Below are positions 15,947 through 26,273 of a stretch of 64,000 nucleotides of DNA, one piece after another. Position 1 is the stretch's first letter, and every line of letters begins with the position of its first letter. Origin of the DNA: Deltaproteobacteria bacterium CG11_big_fil_rev_8_21_14_0_20_47_16 (GTDB lineage Bacteria > UBA10199 > GCA-002796325 > 1-14-0-20-47-16); the NCBI GenBank assembly GCA_002796325.1, contig PCXA01000013.1, forward strand, positions 1-64,000, in the 5' to 3' direction. The notes beneath the pieces were generated by a model. It saw only the letters and a list, made by a program, of their open reading frames with translations. It did not search any database and was not told where the DNA came from. Position numbers and translations under genes: made by a program.

Positions 15947-17506
15947 TTATTGGGTAGCACAGCAACCGCTATTACAGACTGCATTTGAACTGGTTAAACC
16001 CGCATTGTTGTTTGGATTGTTATCTGCCCATTTCTGACAAGCCAAATTATCACCCTCTTTGCAAAAACTGGTTGGACACGAACCATAAAGCGACTGCTGA
16101 CTTGCAAAAACAGTATTACGAACATTGTTCACAGCTGTGCTATTGCAGAATTGCATATTACTAAAATCATTTTCACATCTTGTCTGCACAGCCGCTAGAA
16201 GTGGCTTCGAAAAATCCATACTCACAACGTAATCCGGCGTGGTACTGCAACTAAAGTCGCTCTTTGCCGCAATAATAGTATTGTATTCCGTTTTAGTACC
16301 GCTATAGAGGTCCTCACTAAAGTCCTCCGCTTGAGCCAAAGTCAGCAGTGCGCTGCTCCCTACAGGAACATAGTAACTGGCCTGGAACTCAGATGCCCCC
16401 GTGATAGTCATAGTGTTTTCAAACTGAGAATCCACAGCAAAACCTGCTTCAGTGAATGCTAGATTATCCATTGAAGAACTATCACTTGTGAGGTTAGCAA
16501 AGACTGCCGATTTAAATACTTGGCTTGAAGCATCCGGTCCCCACCGTCCTGCCTGATAATTACGCGCAGTTAGCAACCCATTACCGTCAAGACTGACGGA
16601 CCCTATGAATACAAATGAATCATTCGAAGGCCCGTAAAACACGCGGCCACTGCGTGTCTTGCTTGTATCATAAATAAAATTGCTCCCAGATCTGGTCACG
16701 CTGCCCGTCATAATACCTACGAAATCATCAACCTGCCCAGGAGTGAGTCCAAAGGGTGCAGGGTAAGAATGGGTACTCGTAATCGTCAATTCACCCGCGC
16801 TCGAATTCAAACGAACCTTCTCATATCCGTTCACAGAATTTGTGTCGTCGCAAAACCAAAGATCAGCGGCATAACCACTGCTACCTGTATCTGTTGCTGT
16901 TCCATAGACTTTTACAAAGATCGTCTGGCTTTCCCCGCTTTGTACCACATTTATCTTCGTAATCTGGTTAGCCACAGCTTGCGTCAACGCCTGCTCAACA
17001 GTAGCAGACCCACTCACGATAGTTATATCACTCGCTGCACTGGGCACATTCTGTAAATAGCACAGACTGCCGCCAGCTTGCATAATCTGTTCAAAGGAGT
17101 AACCCACTGTTTCAGCCATTCGGCATGACCCTTCGCCTTCCCAAAATGCGTCCACCTGACTGGCCGTTGCACTACCAGCACCTGCAATTGTAGAAAGCAA
17201 ACCATTCCAAAAATAGGTATCTATATTGCTACTCGAGATAGTGCTCAATTTAGGTGGCGTACCCGACACTGCCTTTGCCAGCGATTTTGACGCCGATAGT
17301 GAGCCGCTAGCGGAAGCCACGCTTGTCAGCGTTGATGTCTCGGGCAACTGTGTAATCGAACTTGCATTAGTTGTGGTACTTGACGATCCCGAAGACCCAC
17401 CACTACTCCCGCAATGCGGAAGGCACATCATTAGTACCAATGTCACAACCCCAACAAGCGCACCACCAACACAGCCCCTTGGAATATTTGGAATATATGG
17501 TCTCAT
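15947..17506 (-). CDS. Large lipoprotein with Cys-rich C-terminus
   Basis: A 519-residue protein with an N-terminal membrane segment and lipobox-like LPHC followed by a Gly/Ser-rich linker (GSSGGSSGSSS), which marks an outer-membrane or surface lipoprotein. The body is Ser/Thr-rich with likely beta structure. The last about 70 residues hold ten or so Cys ending SGCCATQ, suggesting a disulfide-stapled tail. The start at 17506 has a strong AAGGGGG ribosome site. No family is recognised. Confidence 0.75.
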   Translation of the reverse strand: MRPYIPNIPRGCVGGALVGVVTLVLMMCLPHCGSSGGSSGSSSTTTNASSITQLPETSTLTSVASASGSLSASKSLAKAVSGTPPKLSTISSSNIDTYFWNGLLSTIAGAGSATASQVDAFWEGEGSCRMAETVGYSFEQIMQAGGSLCYLQNVPSAASDITIVSGSATVEQALTQAVANQITKINVVQSGESQTIFVKVYGTATDTGSSGYAADLWFCDDTNSVNGYEKVRLNSSAGELTITSTHSYPAPFGLTPGQVDDFVGIMTGSVTRSGSNFIYDTSKTRSGRVFYGPSNDSFVFIGSVSLDGNGLLTARNYQAGRWGPDASSQVFKSAVFANLTSDSSSMDNLAFTEAGFAVDSQFENTMTITGASEFQASYYVPVGSSALLTLAQAEDFSEDLYSGTKTEYNTIIAAKSDFSCSTTPDYVVSMDFSKPLLAAVQTRCENDFSNMQFCNSTAVNNVRNTVFASQQSLYGSCPTSFCKEGDNLACQKWADNNPNNNAGLTSSNAVCNSGCCATQ

Positions 17507-17646
17507 TATTCCCCCTTTGGAAATTTGTATAATATTGTGAACCCCCAATAGACACGACGCAAGGCCAATGATTTGACAATGCCATTACCAAAACCGAACC
17601 TCTATTTACCTAAAATATCTAGAAAAAATCCCCCGCCCCTTTTGCC

Positions 17647-17703: not shown

Positions 17704-17898
17704 ATGAGTGAAGTACTCGTTGTGGCTTCAAAGGTAAAAAAATACATCAAGGACAAAGCTGGTTTTAACACCTCAGCAAGTGCTGTTGATGCCCTGTCAT
17801 TGGCTGTTCAACACTTGTTGGATCATGCCATCACCAGCGCTGGTCAAGAAGGTCGCAAAACCGTTATGGACCGCGACGTCACAAAAGAAGCATTATAA
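17704..17898 (+). CDS. Bdellovibrio-type bacterial histone (single histone fold)
   Basis: A 64-residue protein that is one histone fold: helix 1 with VASKVKKYIK, the KAGFNTSASAVDALS loop and long central helix, LLDHAITSAGQEG, then the C-terminal RKTVMDRDVTKEAL. That ending matches the RKTxMxxDV end found in archaeal and bacterial histones. The length and layout resemble Bdellovibrio bacteriovorus Bd0055 (HBb), which forms dimers, bends or coats DNA and is abundant in the nucleoid. A perfect AGGAGG ribosome site precedes the ATG, consistent with high expression. It has few basic residues outside the helix starts. A DNA-packaging role is inferred from the family. Confidence 0.9.
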   Translation: MSEVLVVASKVKKYIKDKAGFNTSASAVDALSLAVQHLLDHAITSAGQEGRKTVMDRDVTKEAL

Positions 17899-20841: not shown

Positions 20842-21227
20842 AATATAGTCCTTTTGTATGGGAACCCCTACGGGATGGGTGGAATTCGCTCAGAATCTCG
20901 CCGCCGTCAAGACAAAGATAAATTGCCTATTTATTAGGCACTTTAATTGGCAGAGTAATTTAGCCACGACTTTAGGCGACTAGATCACTGCGTTGAAGCA
21001 TCACTTACTCAGTTACGATTCAACCTGTGGATTAACTGTGATTTTTCAAGCAATATCAATCACCTACCAACGTTATCCACAGGGGGTATTAAAAAGTGTG
21101 AAAAAAAATTGTGCACGCACCACCTACATTTGCCACGATACCAGCAATCTACCCGTTTGCACACATGACTGGAGCGTGGTCTAAGGCGATCATTGAAAAC
21201 GCGGTTGCAAGACGAAGTTGCTCTTTG
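20842..21227. other. Intergenic stretch with two DnaA-box-like sites
   Basis: No protein gene is credible here. It holds the tdh leader at its left. A perfect DnaA box TTATCCACA lies at 21073-21081 and an inverted one-mismatch copy TGTGGATTA at 21026-21034. An A-rich tract (21091-21109) follows, then the upstream part of the structured RNA region. No clear promoter for that RNA was found. Two boxes are too few to call an origin. Confidence 0.45.
20905..20940 (-). promoter_or_regulatory. Possible tdh promoter with upstream palindrome
   Basis: Reading toward tdh, TTGACG (20910-20905) could be a -35 box, but no good -10 follows at 17 bp. Fourteen bases upstream lies the palindrome TGCCTA-5-TAGGCA (20924-20940), in the right place for an activator or operator. 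The promoter call is weak; the palindrome itself is exact. Confidence 0.3.
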
Positions 21228-21806
21228 AAATGGGAATCACAGGAGTCATCGTTTAGGGATCTCCGACCTGATCACTCTCTCAGCGAAAGCCAAGGAGGCG
21301 GGACAATTCTGAACGGTATGTGCAACGGTTAGCAGTGATGCGAATCGCCATACTGGGAACCGGAACCAAGAATTGCCAGTCTTCTGAAGGAGAAAGGACA
21401 CAGCGGAAAAAACACTAAAATGGAGGCAGATGTGCCGAATAGGCCGCTTCTATCGGGTGTGGCGCGATACCTCAGGAGGGCGAATCCAGCATCGAAAGAG
21501 GCTGGCTCTTTAACCTTGTAGGGGAAACAGTTCTGGAAGCAGGACTGTCGCCATAATCGAAAAAACCATAGAGGTGCAGGAAAATCCCAAGAAAGCACAG
21601 GAGAGAAAAGCTCGTGTTCCGCGAGCAAAAGTCTCCGGCAGCGAGATAAAGTAAAACACCCTGAAACAGACGCCCCTTCCTGGAATGGAGGCGGGCCAAC
21701 TGCAAGAGGGAATGAGGCCTTGAAAAAGGTTCTGCTTTATAACGATGCTTGAACGCTCTGGAGGGACAAACTATCCCCAAGCGATGACACAAGTGATTCC
21801 CATTTT
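21228..21806 (+). ncRNA. Candidate large structured non-coding RNA, about 580 nt
   Basis: The ends are exactly complementary over 13 bp (21228-21240 with 21793-21805). Inside them a second helix pairs GTCATCG (21245-21251) with CGATGAC (21782-21788), and a third pairs GGGAT with ATCCC (21256-21260/21773-21777), so the whole region closes as one domain. Internal helices include CAATTCT/AGAATTG (21304-21310/21369-21375), GGTATG/CATACT (21315-21320/21349-21354) and CCAGC/GCTGG (21487-21491/21501-21505). A 9-bp hairpin with GAAG loop lies at 21527-21548. A two-step hairpin near 21600-21636 has AAAA-type internal loops. A strong terminator follows at once. All open frames here are short, on both strands, and lack good starts. 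No known RNA family is recognised. The 5' end is set by the closing helix and transcription may begin earlier. Confidence 0.75.
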
Positions 21807-21841
21807 AAAACCCCTCTGGGTTCGCCCAGAGGGGTTTTTTT
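21807..21841 (+). terminator. Strong intrinsic terminator of the structured RNA
   Basis: CCCCTCTGGG, a TTCG tetraloop and the exact complement form a 10-bp stem (21811-21834) followed by seven T, and preceded by four A so it can extend further. It ends the plus-strand RNA. On the minus strand it follows the stop of the converging gene and may serve both. Confidence 0.93.
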
Positions 21842-22589
21842 ATTGGGATTGTTTTCGATTGGCTGCCTTAATTTCAGCAATGCCTTCAACGGTGGCACTA
21901 CCTGATAAAATTTCTTGCTCATCAAAGCGAACCATCCAAGGGTAGTGGTCTTTGGTCACAAGGCGCCACCAGGGGTCACCATTGCCACGCCAGGCATCAT
22001 ACACAATACCCGTTTTTAATGGCTGGCCACGCACGGTCCACACCAGCCCATTGTTCTCCAATATTTTATGCAAATGTGCCCCACCCCACCACCGTTCATA
22101 GACGTGATACGGTTTCTGAGGCAGGCCCGCCAACAACCCACGCACCCATTGATAGCACTGACCACCCTTTTTAACCCCAAAATTAACAAGCATATTGTTA
22201 ATGAGGGAAGAATGAACCATCTGAAATTCATCGGAAAGTTTACGTGTGATTTCCACCATCTGGATTGCAATATCTTGTGATTCTTCTTGGGCAATTGTCA
22301 GTTGATCTGATGGTAGATGAGCGGTCTTGGCAAGTTGATACAGGGCCTTCTGATAACGCTGCATATCACGCGCATCATCACGTAGCAATTTTTCGCGTTT
22401 GCATGATTCCGGAAATGTGCCACGCCCACGTGAGTCTTGCCATGCAATTGATTCCCTCGCAGGAAGATGTGCCATGCACTCATTGAGTTGCGCATTGCGC
22501 CCTTGCAGAAGTGTCTCGATGCGATCTGCAGAGAAGGCAGCCGATGATATGAAAAGCACTATCAAAACTAAAGGCCATTTCCAATTCAT
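21840..22589 (-). CDS. Secreted protein with possible Cys-His-Asp catalytic set
   Basis: A 249-residue exported protein (signal peptide MNWKWPLVLIVLFISSAAFSA). The mature part has a helical region, then KKGGQCYQWVRGLL, later HLHKILENNGLVW and YDAWRGNGDPWWR. This Cys, His and Asp order resembles papain- or transglutaminase-like folds in bacterial secreted cysteine hydrolases. The family is not recognised and catalysis is inference. An in-frame ATG at 22619 would add ten residues; I prefer 22589 because it gives a standard signal peptide. It is downstream of and possibly co-transcribed with the large repeat protein. Confidence 0.7.
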   Translation of the reverse strand: MNWKWPLVLIVLFISSAAFSADRIETLLQGRNAQLNECMAHLPARESIAWQDSRGRGTFPESCKREKLLRDDARDMQRYQKALYQLAKTAHLPSDQLTIAQEESQDIAIQMVEITRKLSDEFQMVHSSLINNMLVNFGVKKGGQCYQWVRGLLAGLPQKPYHVYERWWGGAHLHKILENNGLVWTVRGQPLKTGIVYDAWRGNGDPWWRLVTKDHYPWMVRFDEQEILSGSATVEGIAEIKAANRKQSQ

Positions 22590-22630
22590 GGAAATGGCCT
22601 TTAAAGAATCTATGTTCATATATCAATTGT

Positions 22631-25600
22631 TTACTGACGGATTAAAGTACAACCACCCCGCATGCTACTACCATAAGTGGCACCCGTTGGCGATACAGTT
22701 GGGTCACTCAATGTAACACCACCTATACCCGGCAATTCACCCGATTTACCGACTGCGCCCGTCAATGCTGAGCCTGAACCTCCAGAATCTGTACCAAACC
22801 CCACAACTTTAACACCGCCACCCACTGATTTACTCAAATTCACTTCAGCAGTAGCCGTTGCACCTGCAGGATCAGTGACAACCAGGCGAGCAGTATAGTT
22901 TTGATCTGTTGCTGCATTATCTCCAGCTGACTTCGCTCCCATAGATTTGGCAATAGGTGCATTGGCATTGATCTCGACATTTACAGCACCAGCTGGCACT
23001 GCCGCCGCTTCAGTTGGCCAATTGACAAATGGCGTCTCGCTGGTCACATCGCTTAAATAATCAGTGTGGTCCACTGGCTTGCCATCCACAATTTGCTCAA
23101 GCGTCCATTTATAGGTCAGATCTTCGCCTTCTTGTGTCTGAACCGTAGGCTTTAGCTCTGACTGTACATTTGAATCAGCATTTACCACATCAATCACATC
23201 AATGACTGGATTCAAATTTTGCTTGGGTAAGAAGTAAATACCCCCACTCATCAAGCAAAACTGATCAGGTCCGCCGTAATTATCTACATCCACCACAACG
23301 CATTGGCGCGCGCCTGGATAGGTCTCTTGTGGATCTACGGCTACACTGCCATCAACTTGCTCGCGTAACAACACGTTCTTATCACCATAAACGACCACAG
23401 CATCAGGCACTTTCCCAAAACCTTCAAACTTGTAAACAGTCGCATCCGCTTTGACATCATCTGTCATTAGTTTTGTAGCAACTTTCACACCAAATGACTC
23501 ATTCTTGATGTCATGCTTGGATTTGAGAATGATTTTTTTGGCGATTGTATCCTTTACGAGTTCCTTCGTATTATTAACATCCTTTTTCTCACACTCTGCC
23601 TGCGTTTTATCTGCGTACAAATGACAACTAACAACCATTCCTCCATCAGCCTTATTGTCAAATGGAACATTCATATCCACAACCACATGACCATCTTCTG
23701 CCGTTGTCACAATAAAGTCGTGAACCAATTGCTTCATCTTAAAGTTATCTGGGAATGTCCAAATTTTGGCATGAGATTTATCGGTTGATTCAGCAACATC
23801 AATGACTTCAATTCCCTTGAGATGGGTTTCGTTACTTCCATCACCATTTTGCTTCCCATCTCTGAAAAGCATTACTATCTTATTGTCTACAATTCCAAAT
23901 TCGTCACCGTACTTTGCATCTTCAACCTCAGGAATGGTATACATCATTCCTTCAACGCCCGTTCCCGCAAAATATTTATCAAAATCACACTCCACAGGAT
24001 CACCTTTGACAAGCTCTTCAACAGGCTTACCGTTATCAATGATTATTTTTTTGAACAACTTAAGCCCATCGCCTGTGAGTGCTTGAATCTTTTTATCCTT
24101 TTCGAATACCGTAGCCATCGTATAGCCATTTTTATCTTTACCAACAGGAAACATCAACCCTTCACCCTTACATAACAACCCCACTTTAGTCATCGGATCG
24201 ATTGGTGCAAAGAAGTCTTTTCCCATCATCCAAATCAGATGATTATTTTTCGCAATCTTAATCACTCCAATATAAACCTCATCTTCCTTTTCCTTGCCCG
24301 GATTTTGAGGTTTATTATTACTAGAGTAGATTTTCAATTTACTACAATCAAATATAGTAGATTGACAACCATTCGCATCAATACCAACAGGCTTTTCTTC
24401 TCCTGAAGTTGCATTATTTTCACCTACTGGCTTATCAGTTCCAGCAGCTGCAACCCCCAACTGGTTTTCCATACCAGCCGCAACAATGTCATTGCCACTG
24501 GCCACAGTACCAATATCCCGATTTAATTTTGCACTATATTCAACACCAGCAAGCTGATCATCACCTGAAGCAGCCGCACTATTAGCAGCAGTTGTTGCTT
24601 CAGCAGCAGTCCGTGCAGCAACTTCTGCTGCCAATCGTTCCGCTTCTGTTTGCTCCAAAGCATCTCGTATCCAACTATCTGGATTAACAGCACCATCCAC
24701 ATAACGTTCAGTGGCTGCCGCAGCAGCAGTCCGTGCAGCGACTTCAGCTGCCAACCGTTCTGCATCTGTTTGTGTTGCAGTTGTTGTATCCTGACGTGCA
24801 GCAGTTTCTGTTGCAAGGCGTTCACGCTCTGCAGCGGCTAAGCGATCTGCTTCTGTTTGTCGCGCAGCAACTTCTGCCGCCAATCGTTCTGCATCCGTCT
24901 GAGTTGCGGCTGTTTGTCGGGCAGCAGCTTCAGCTGCCAAACGTGCCCGTTCCGCCAAAGCCAGACGTTCACGCTCTGCGGCAGCTAAGCGATCTGCTTC
25001 TGTTGGGGTTGTTGTAGTGTTTGTTGTCGTAACACGTGTTGTCGGTGTATCTTGTCGGATAGCAGTTGTTTGGGTCGTTGAAGCAGAGGTTGATGTTGTA
25101 CCAACAGACAAGCGCGTTCCTTGCGCTGCGATTGTCGATGGGGTTGATATGCTCAACCCAGAATTCGATGCCACTTGATTCTCTGCAACAATTTGACTTC
25201 CACCTGAAGATGGTTCTGTTGCAATTTGCCGATCTGCAACGCTACCCACACTTGATGACTGAATGCTGGATGATTGAGTTACTGATTTTGCAGCTATCTG
25301 AGTAGATGGAGCTACTGTTGCTGTAGCTGCTGCCTCAACCTGGGGTGCTTCAACTGGAGCACTTGCTTCCTTGGCAGCCTCTAGCGCTGCTGGTTTTGCA
25401 AGCTCTGTATCCGGTGCCGGTGTGGGTGCAACTTGAACCTTATCATAGTTGAGAATATCTTTTGAAGCGACCGTTGCAGGTGGTGCCACAACAGTGGCGG
25501 GCACCATTGCATTGAGCGGTTTCGCTTCCTGTATACCATACATTTCCGGCTCAGGAGCCATTTGTTGAGGTGCAGCCTGTGGTGCCGAAGCAACAGGGGT

Positions 25601-26116
25601 TGGCGTACTTGGTACGGCTGGTGCCGTCTCAAACCCAAATGATGTCTTGCCTGTATCCGACCCTGTATTCACGGGCGACGAGGGTGCTGTCTTGGGAACA
25701 CCGGGAACAGTGGGCACAGGTGCTGTCACAAATCCAAACGATGTCTTTCCTGTATCCGACCCAACAGGTACTGGTGCTTGTGGGACTGATTTTGGAATAT
25801 CCGGAACGGCAGGTGCAGGTTCTGTCACAAACCCAAATGATGTTGCCACCGTAGTCACTGCTTTTGAAATTGCACCTTTGATTGCAGAAACAACAGATGA
25901 TGCGGCATTTGCAATTGACTCAAAAAGATTAGAGAGAACACCTGAGCCACCAGACGTCTGTTGAACTACTACCGGTCGATCAACCGTAGAACTGCCACTT
26001 GCTGATATTTGCGAAGATGGTGCATTGCGCACTTGAGTCTGTGCTTGTCCGGCCATCGATACCGTGGACATCACTAAACTCACACTCATAATTCCAACCA
26101 AAATATGCAGCCGCAT
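22631..26116 (-). CDS. Large secreted repeat protein ending in GCTLIRQ
   Basis: A 1161-residue protein with a signal peptide (cleavage near SMAGQA). Residues about 85-200 hold three copies of a Pro-rich unit with TSFGFxT. Next comes a Thr/Ala-rich stretch, then about residues 370-540 with repeats of (T/E)A(D/E)RLAAEVAAR that read as coiled coil. The C-terminal half is globular and beta-rich, including a PKD/cadherin-like segment around TYKWTLEQ near residue 1020. The protein ends GCTLIRQ. The GGGGAGG ribosome site supports the ATG at 26116 over the longer frame. It is probably a surface or envelope-spanning protein; no enzymatic motif was seen. Confidence 0.8.
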   Translation of the reverse strand: MRLHILVGIMSVSLVMSTVSMAGQAQTQVRNAPSSQISASGSSTVDRPVVVQQTSGGSGVLSNLFESIANAASSVVSAIKGAISKAVTTVATSFGFVTEPAPAVPDIPKSVPQAPVPVGSDTGKTSFGFVTAPVPTVPGVPKTAPSSPVNTGSDTGKTSFGFETAPAVPSTPTPVASAPQAAPQQMAPEPEMYGIQEAKPLNAMVPATVVAPPATVASKDILNYDKVQVAPTPAPDTELAKPAALEAAKEASAPVEAPQVEAAATATVAPSTQIAAKSVTQSSSIQSSSVGSVADRQIATEPSSGGSQIVAENQVASNSGLSISTPSTIAAQGTRLSVGTTSTSASTTQTTAIRQDTPTTRVTTTNTTTTPTEADRLAAAERERLALAERARLAAEAAARQTAATQTDAERLAAEVAARQTEADRLAAAERERLATETAARQDTTTATQTDAERLAAEVAARTAAAAATERYVDGAVNPDSWIRDALEQTEAERLAAEVAARTAAEATTAANSAAASGDDQLAGVEYSAKLNRDIGTVASGNDIVAAGMENQLGVAAAGTDKPVGENNATSGEEKPVGIDANGCQSTIFDCSKLKIYSSNNKPQNPGKEKEDEVYIGVIKIAKNNHLIWMMGKDFFAPIDPMTKVGLLCKGEGLMFPVGKDKNGYTMATVFEKDKKIQALTGDGLKLFKKIIIDNGKPVEELVKGDPVECDFDKYFAGTGVEGMMYTIPEVEDAKYGDEFGIVDNKIVMLFRDGKQNGDGSNETHLKGIEVIDVAESTDKSHAKIWTFPDNFKMKQLVHDFIVTTAEDGHVVVDMNVPFDNKADGGMVVSCHLYADKTQAECEKKDVNNTKELVKDTIAKKIILKSKHDIKNESFGVKVATKLMTDDVKADATVYKFEGFGKVPDAVVVYGDKNVLLREQVDGSVAVDPQETYPGARQCVVVDVDNYGGPDQFCLMSGGIYFLPKQNLNPVIDVIDVVNADSNVQSELKPTVQTQEGEDLTYKWTLEQIVDGKPVDHTDYLSDVTSETPFVNWPTEAAAVPAGAVNVEINANAPIAKSMGAKSAGDNAATDQNYTARLVVTDPAGATATAEVNLSKSVGGGVKVVGFGTDSGGSGSALTGAVGKSGELPGIGGVTLSDPTVSPTGATYGSSMRGGCTLIRQ

Positions 26117-26273
26117 GCGTACCTCCCCGTTGTCTTGATAATAACCTAGAGCAAGACGCGTGCCAGGGAGGTTGCCTTGCAACATATTGATATATATTTG
26201 TTTTTTTATTATTAAACTACGAAAATGGGTGAAGGATTACCAAGAGCGTCAGTATTTTCTCACCTTGAGAAGG

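Follow-up and report, generated by a model that had tools for sequence, protein, structure and literature searches.

A boxA-led gene for a large structured RNA represents a new family of bacterial non-coding RNAs

The window (the whole 64,000-nt stretch of DNA that was analysed) carries, at positions 21219–21841 of the plus strand, a gene encoding an RNA of ~580 nt. It is best explained as a stand-alone gene of a new family of large structured non-coding RNAs that would serve as trans-acting structural scaffolds, most likely as part of an RNP; we put the probability of this reading at about two in three. The RNA family itself is well supported by the comparison of sequences, whereas its function as a trans-acting structural RNA is suggested by the behaviour of other large RNAs, and the scaffold role is an analogy.

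The layout of the gene is given in Table 1. As originally predicted, the RNA is closed by a perfect 13-bp helix between its ends, P1, which pairs AAATGGGAATCAC with GTGATTCCCATTT. Further closing helices had been proposed inside it, and the next one, P2, indeed joins TCATCGTTTAGGG (21246–21258) to CCCCAAGCGATGA (21775–21787), with one A·C mismatch in the window that is absent from the unbroken helix of several relatives. The original prediction let the RNA begin at 21228; the helix does start there, but the transcript unit also takes in the boxA element, which overlaps P1. The terminator expected immediately behind the RNA, with its TTCG loop and T run, is in place as well, and an intrinsic terminator also follows the RNA in many relatives. 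The GAAG sequences described as internal loops were found in a different setting: GAAG is present, but as the GNRA-like loop of the hairpin at 21529–21546. The segment 21222–21845 folds at −241.1 kcal/mol versus a shuffled mean of −187.8 (sd 6.8), corresponding to a z of −7.9, and none of 20 shuffles was equally good; for the internal helices, the structure based on covariation was preferred over this single-sequence fold. Protein coding had been judged very unlikely, and no convincing open reading frame covers the RNA, the longest overlapping frames (99 and 106 aa) lying on the opposite strand.

Table 1. Features of the RNA gene in the window.
Feature	Position	Strand	Remarks
−35-like element TTGCAC	21157–21162	+	Read from sequence; 17-nt spacer to the −10-like element
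−10-like element TCTAAG	21180–21185	+	Identical in G002 and G004, also in G021
boxA antitermination element TGCTCTTTGA	21219–21228	+	Same place in nearly all class homologues
P1 5′ strand, 13-bp terminal helix	21228–21240	+	Equivalent but different helices in relatives
P2 5′ strand, conserved closing helix UCAUCGUUUAGGGA	21246–21259	+	Helix 1 of the covariation consensus
Domain 1	21275–21396	+	Helices 2–6 of the 11-sequence consensus structure
Domain 2, including the GAAG-capped hairpin	21413–21576	+	Looks like a diverged duplicate of the domain 3 module
Domain 3, best conserved module	21586–21765	+	Covariance models and covariation, 30 copies
P2 3′ strand	21775–21787	+	Pairs with P2 5′ strand
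P1 3′ strand	21793–21805	+	Pairs with P1 5′ strand
Intrinsic terminator	21807–21841	+	14-pair stem 21807–21838, TTCG loop, T run

Covariation in the proposed helices proved very strong. In the whole-molecule alignment of 11 full-length sequences, for which RNAalifold gave a consensus of 102 pairs, two-sided change is seen in 72 of these pairs and 91.7% of cells pair. The covariation score is 0.562, compared with 0.244 (sd 0.013) for shuffled alignments and at most 0.166 when the partners are slid by 1–3 columns. All 18 helices have at least 81% of their cells paired; the closing helix P2, which is helix 1 of this alignment, reaches 94.8%, with two-sided change in 8 of 20 pairs. Domain 3 gave a similarly clear signal over 30 copies, in an alignment fitted to its own model: a score of 0.636 versus 0.216 shuffled and at most 0.160 slid, with two-sided change in 37 of 42 pairs. 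An earlier plain MAFFT alignment of 12 domain 3 copies showed the same picture (0.560 versus 0.225 shuffled). As far as aligned sequences can speak, the covariation is decisive that an elaborate secondary structure is kept under selection.

Homologues were found by several routes. Among relatives, blastn returned one 36-nt match in G002, which lies inside a collinear RNA of equal length, and a second homologue was found in G004. R1, a model built from the sequence of the promoter and 5′ end alone, detected eight more homologues in the class, and scanning named genomes with a pattern contributed one in a LakeFargette MAG. R2, a covariance model of domain 3 built from twelve copies, matched strongly in 24 of the 46 class genomes, representing 12 of 21 families, with E-values from 5e-23 to 3e-50; these values, like all those of R1, R2 and the refined models made in the analysis, are rough, and about half of the 24 genomes lay outside the training set. 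Over 338 genomes of other phyla, R2 yielded one strong match, in G223 (E 1e-17), and two marginal ones, and a search of the phylum of G223 added G385 with two copies, so that the second phylum is represented by two genomes; the genome collections searched are uneven. The 5′ pattern gave 33 matches in genome contigs, seven of which carry the whole RNA, most others being chance matches or coding sequence. All named records that contain the complete RNA are metagenome-assembled genomes labelled “Deltaproteobacteria bacterium”, which we take to be members of the GTDB group UBA10199. The other 22 of the 46 class genomes, several of them nearly complete, yielded no copy even to a refined model run with relaxed filters; hence the RNA is not essential throughout the class, and its patchy presence suggests that it is useful rather than essential. 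The marginal matches in G155 and G181 were not confirmed by the refined model, the match in G011 was rejected on reading as apparently coding, and the weak model matches L030–L039 were likewise read and rejected. One of the 24 genomes, G042, carries only a truncated copy (L124, 3984–4097), in which domain 3 lacks an internal part and follows unrelated sequence; it is either a remnant or an assembly break.

In nearly all class copies, the motif (G/T)CTCTTTGA or a close variant immediately precedes the terminal helix or coincides with its start. Elements of this kind, known to stand before rRNA and certain CRISPR arrays, assist the polymerase in completing long untranslated transcripts (PMC7862264). 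A 16S gene was searched for in the RNA’s own genome and not found, so the boxA was compared in the rrn leaders of relatives. Thirteen 16S leaders were readable from their beginning, from 11 class genomes with the RNA, from G001, which is without it, and from G385 of the second phylum; they carry the same boxA, typically CTCTTTGAAAACTA, 106–236 nt before the 16S gene, and by simple arithmetic the 7-letter core would occur by chance in a 350-nt leader about once in fifty. The element near the 5′ end of the RNA belongs to the same type as the boxA in the rrn leaders of these genomes, and since it precedes both the RNA and 16S, the RNA is probably expressed in the manner of rRNA; the second-phylum copies in G223 and G385 show no clear boxA. 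The resemblance to an rRNA operon concerns the mode of expression only: in both, a boxA comes shortly ahead of a long structured RNA whose ends form a long duplex; the RNA itself is not rRNA, occupies a separate locus and has no Rfam rRNA match. BoxA-led CRISPR arrays likewise resemble it only in that a boxA precedes a long untranslated transcript (PMC7862264), whereas the window RNA lacks a repeat-spacer structure. Among the 16S matches, that of G007 (G007:C55:37151-39691, L153) spans 2541 nt versus the usual about 1540, and those of G016, G017, G041 and G044 are broken or partial, which might point to introns or large insertions within rRNA or be an effect of assembly.

Upstream of boxA, at a distance of about 35 nt, lies the promoter-like pair TTGCAC-17 nt-TCTAAG (21157–21185). 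Its −35 equivalents are TTGCAT in G004 and TTGAGC in G002, spaced 17–18 nt from the identical TCTAAG. A generic promoter scan did not flag 21157–21185, which is not a strong match to the sigma-70 consensus; it is the conservation of the elements in relatives that makes the segment a putative promoter.

The RNA also appears to contain an internal repeat, with domains 2 and 3 as its recognised members. The domain 3 model matches domain 2 of the window RNA as well (21408–21577, E 2e-4 over 386 nt), that of G028 (E 1e-9 over 482 nt) and, in a 265-kb search, that of several other homologues. In the module plan, a closing stem with a 3×3 A/G-rich loop leads into a two-part hairpin, followed by a second arm with another A-rich 3×3 loop and a GNRA-type tetraloop. 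The simplest explanation of these matches would be that domains 2 and 3 are diverged copies of one structural module, arisen by internal duplication. The RNA of G223, ~1.1 kb long and closed by a ~22-bp helix, has two additional modules (E 5e-9 and 3e-7) besides its main domain 3 match, so that recognisable module copies number two in the class and at least three in the second phylum.

Tandem repeats of the whole RNA gene occur in two genomes. In G041 (L114), four copies stand in tandem about 620–630 nt apart, each with its own boxA; the copies have diverged, and each closing helix differs from the others yet pairs with itself, as in copy 1 (CAATTGTTTGAGGAA with TTCCTTAAACAATTG) and copy 4 (CAATTATTTAAGGAA with TTCCTTAAATAGTTG). 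A clear terminator follows the last copy only. This layout, with a boxA before each unit as in an rRNA operon, a self-pairing helix per copy and a single terminator, argues that the functional gene is the unit from boxA to closing helix, and the units of the array would be cut from a common transcript. Two tandem copies are found in G044 (L113).

Searches of known families, like the covariation above, support the prediction of an undescribed large structured RNA resembling OLE, GOLLD and ROOL in style: of the conditions named beforehand as refuting it, neither a significant Rfam hit nor a lack of covariation was observed. The boxA, the module repeat, the tandem arrays and the distribution go beyond that prediction. 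At the gathering score, no family of Rfam 15 matched the window RNA, and a permissive threshold gave weak matches far below the cut-offs, mostly at the terminator; on the eleven homologous loci no match fell on the RNA, and the single match was a tRNA. In the open-access articles searched, no paper was found that joins UBA10199 with noncoding RNA, and neither boxA nor Deltaproteobacteria comes up in a survey from 2024 that describes new ncRNAs of 50 bacterial genomes. Judged against Rfam 15 and this literature, what is new is the RNA family, which is without detectable relative; “large ornate RNAs of unknown function” are already recognised as a loose group. Few bacterial ncRNAs reach such size and complexity (rRNA, RNase P, tmRNA, group I and II introns, OLE, ROOL, GOLLD and a few others), and the ones that are understood have turned out to be catalysts, to be central to the cell or to have a surprising architecture. 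Conservation of the present RNA extends over at least 12 families of one class and into a second phylum, and the RNA appears to borrow an rRNA expression signal. Duplication of a module inside an RNA, as apparently occurred here, is a rarely documented route of large-RNA growth.

Taken together as a trans-acting scaffold, the features suggest the following mode of action. RNA polymerase would start at the putative promoter, and boxA would bring in the NusB/S10 antitermination machinery, allowing the polymerase to reach the end of the long, structured transcript. P1 and P2 would then form a long duplex, probably to be trimmed by an RNase specific for double strands, much as happens to the stems of pre-rRNA. 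The core set free in this way, about 570 nt long, may fold into a compact and stable particle by means of its GNRA-type tetraloops and A-rich symmetric loops. This particle would serve as a trans-acting structural scaffold, most likely within an RNP and possibly as an RNA-only oligomer. For the role of the particle we infer the order RNP scaffold, RNA-only oligomer and ribozyme. A broader and more tentative idea, which we hold possible rather than probable, is that the family comprises modular, self-assembling RNA particles, chromosomally encoded and made like rRNA, whose module number varies by lineage and which work as RNA-only oligomers or RNA-centred RNPs.

Rather unlikely, in our estimate, is an assembly of RNA alone, in which the homo-oligomer itself is the functional object, as for GOLLD, ROOL and OLE. 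The window RNA falls into the same size class as an OLE example of 577 nt and a ROOL example of 659 nt, both of which oligomerise (PMC12286853), and its conserved GNRA-type loops, A-rich symmetric loops, repeated modules, tandem copies and rRNA-like expression signals would suit such an object. However, it has no detectable homology to any of the three: the OLE, ROOL and GOLLD covariance models found no match in the window or the eleven homologous loci, OLE being absent from the window list at E up to 10, and the covariation found is accounted for by intramolecular helices. With OLE it shares a length of about 600 nt, a chromosomal location, an elaborate conserved structure and an unknown biochemical function; it differs in having no Rfam match at a useful score and no fixed neighbour gene that could be seen, in its boxA start and internal module repeat, and in its phyla, OLE occurring mostly in Bacillota. 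It resembles ROOL in size, ornate structure and probably high expression, but ROOL genes belong to phages and prophages and frequently lie close to tRNA genes, whereas the window RNA is chromosomal, with no phage homologue found and the nearest tRNA in the window 6.6 kb away. GOLLD is likewise a large ornate RNA, and the second-phylum version of the present family (~1.1 kb) is also very large, but the family has no Rfam match and was phage-borne in no case seen.

A ribozyme with a catalytic core is a less probable reading than an RNA-only assembly. Large size, strongly conserved unpaired positions and complex junctions would be in keeping with catalysis, yet there is no known catalytic signature and no substrate in sight; the RNase P, group I intron and group II intron models of Rfam matched neither the window RNA nor the eleven homologous loci.

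The remaining explanations are all very improbable. An intrinsic terminator at the end would fit a cis-acting leader or attenuator of a neighbouring gene, but this is largely excluded by gene orientation: the downstream gene (21840–22619, without Pfam match) lies on the opposite strand and converges on the RNA gene, and the upstream tdh-kbl-like pair (zinc dehydrogenase and aminotransferase-fold) is divergent. Neighbours also differ between class families, with no flanking gene family common to the whole class and gene order kept within families only, and no competing antiterminator helix is evident. A diverged housekeeping RNA (tmRNA, RNase P, 6S, SRP RNA or an rRNA fragment) would likewise be chromosomal, inherited with the lineage and, like rRNA, led by boxA; against it, no Rfam family matches the window RNA, and the genome has its own tmRNA elsewhere (G000:C1:265334-265670; none in the window by ARAGORN), as do 42 of the 46 class genomes above the cut-off, and its own RNase P RNA, the sole match in the window, at 697–1092 on the minus strand. 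Rfam and ARAGORN thereby bear out the prediction that the RNA carries no tmRNA, RNase P or group I/II intron signature.

Two long proteins encoded in the window (533 and 1184 aa; 15947–17548 and 22631–26185, minus strand) have no Pfam match, the longer containing many low-complexity A/E/R and T/S repeats. A 64-aa protein encoded at 17704–17898 on the plus strand matches solved histone-fold proteins, best PDB 8fvx and 8cmp (CBFD_NFYB_HMF domain, E 3e-14), and represents a bacterial histone gene.

A mobile-element or phage RNA, be it a retron, an intron or a prophage-borne RNA like ROOL, is hardly credible either: other large ornate RNAs are often phage-borne (PMC12286853) and tandem copies occur (G041, G044), but the gene is single-copy in its own 1.95-Mb genome, gene order is kept within families, and no homologue was found in the phage and plasmid records or viral contigs searched. 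The nucleotide search of phage and plasmid records gave short chance matches only; in viral contigs, neither a 19-nt exact pattern nor the domain 3 pattern matched, and a degenerate 5′ pattern hit nine contigs, none with the 3′ parts of the RNA. Eight of these nine (L073–L077 and L079–L081) have TCTTTGATAAAGGATTGCTATCGTTTAGGAA in common, which is probably coding and unrelated to the RNA.
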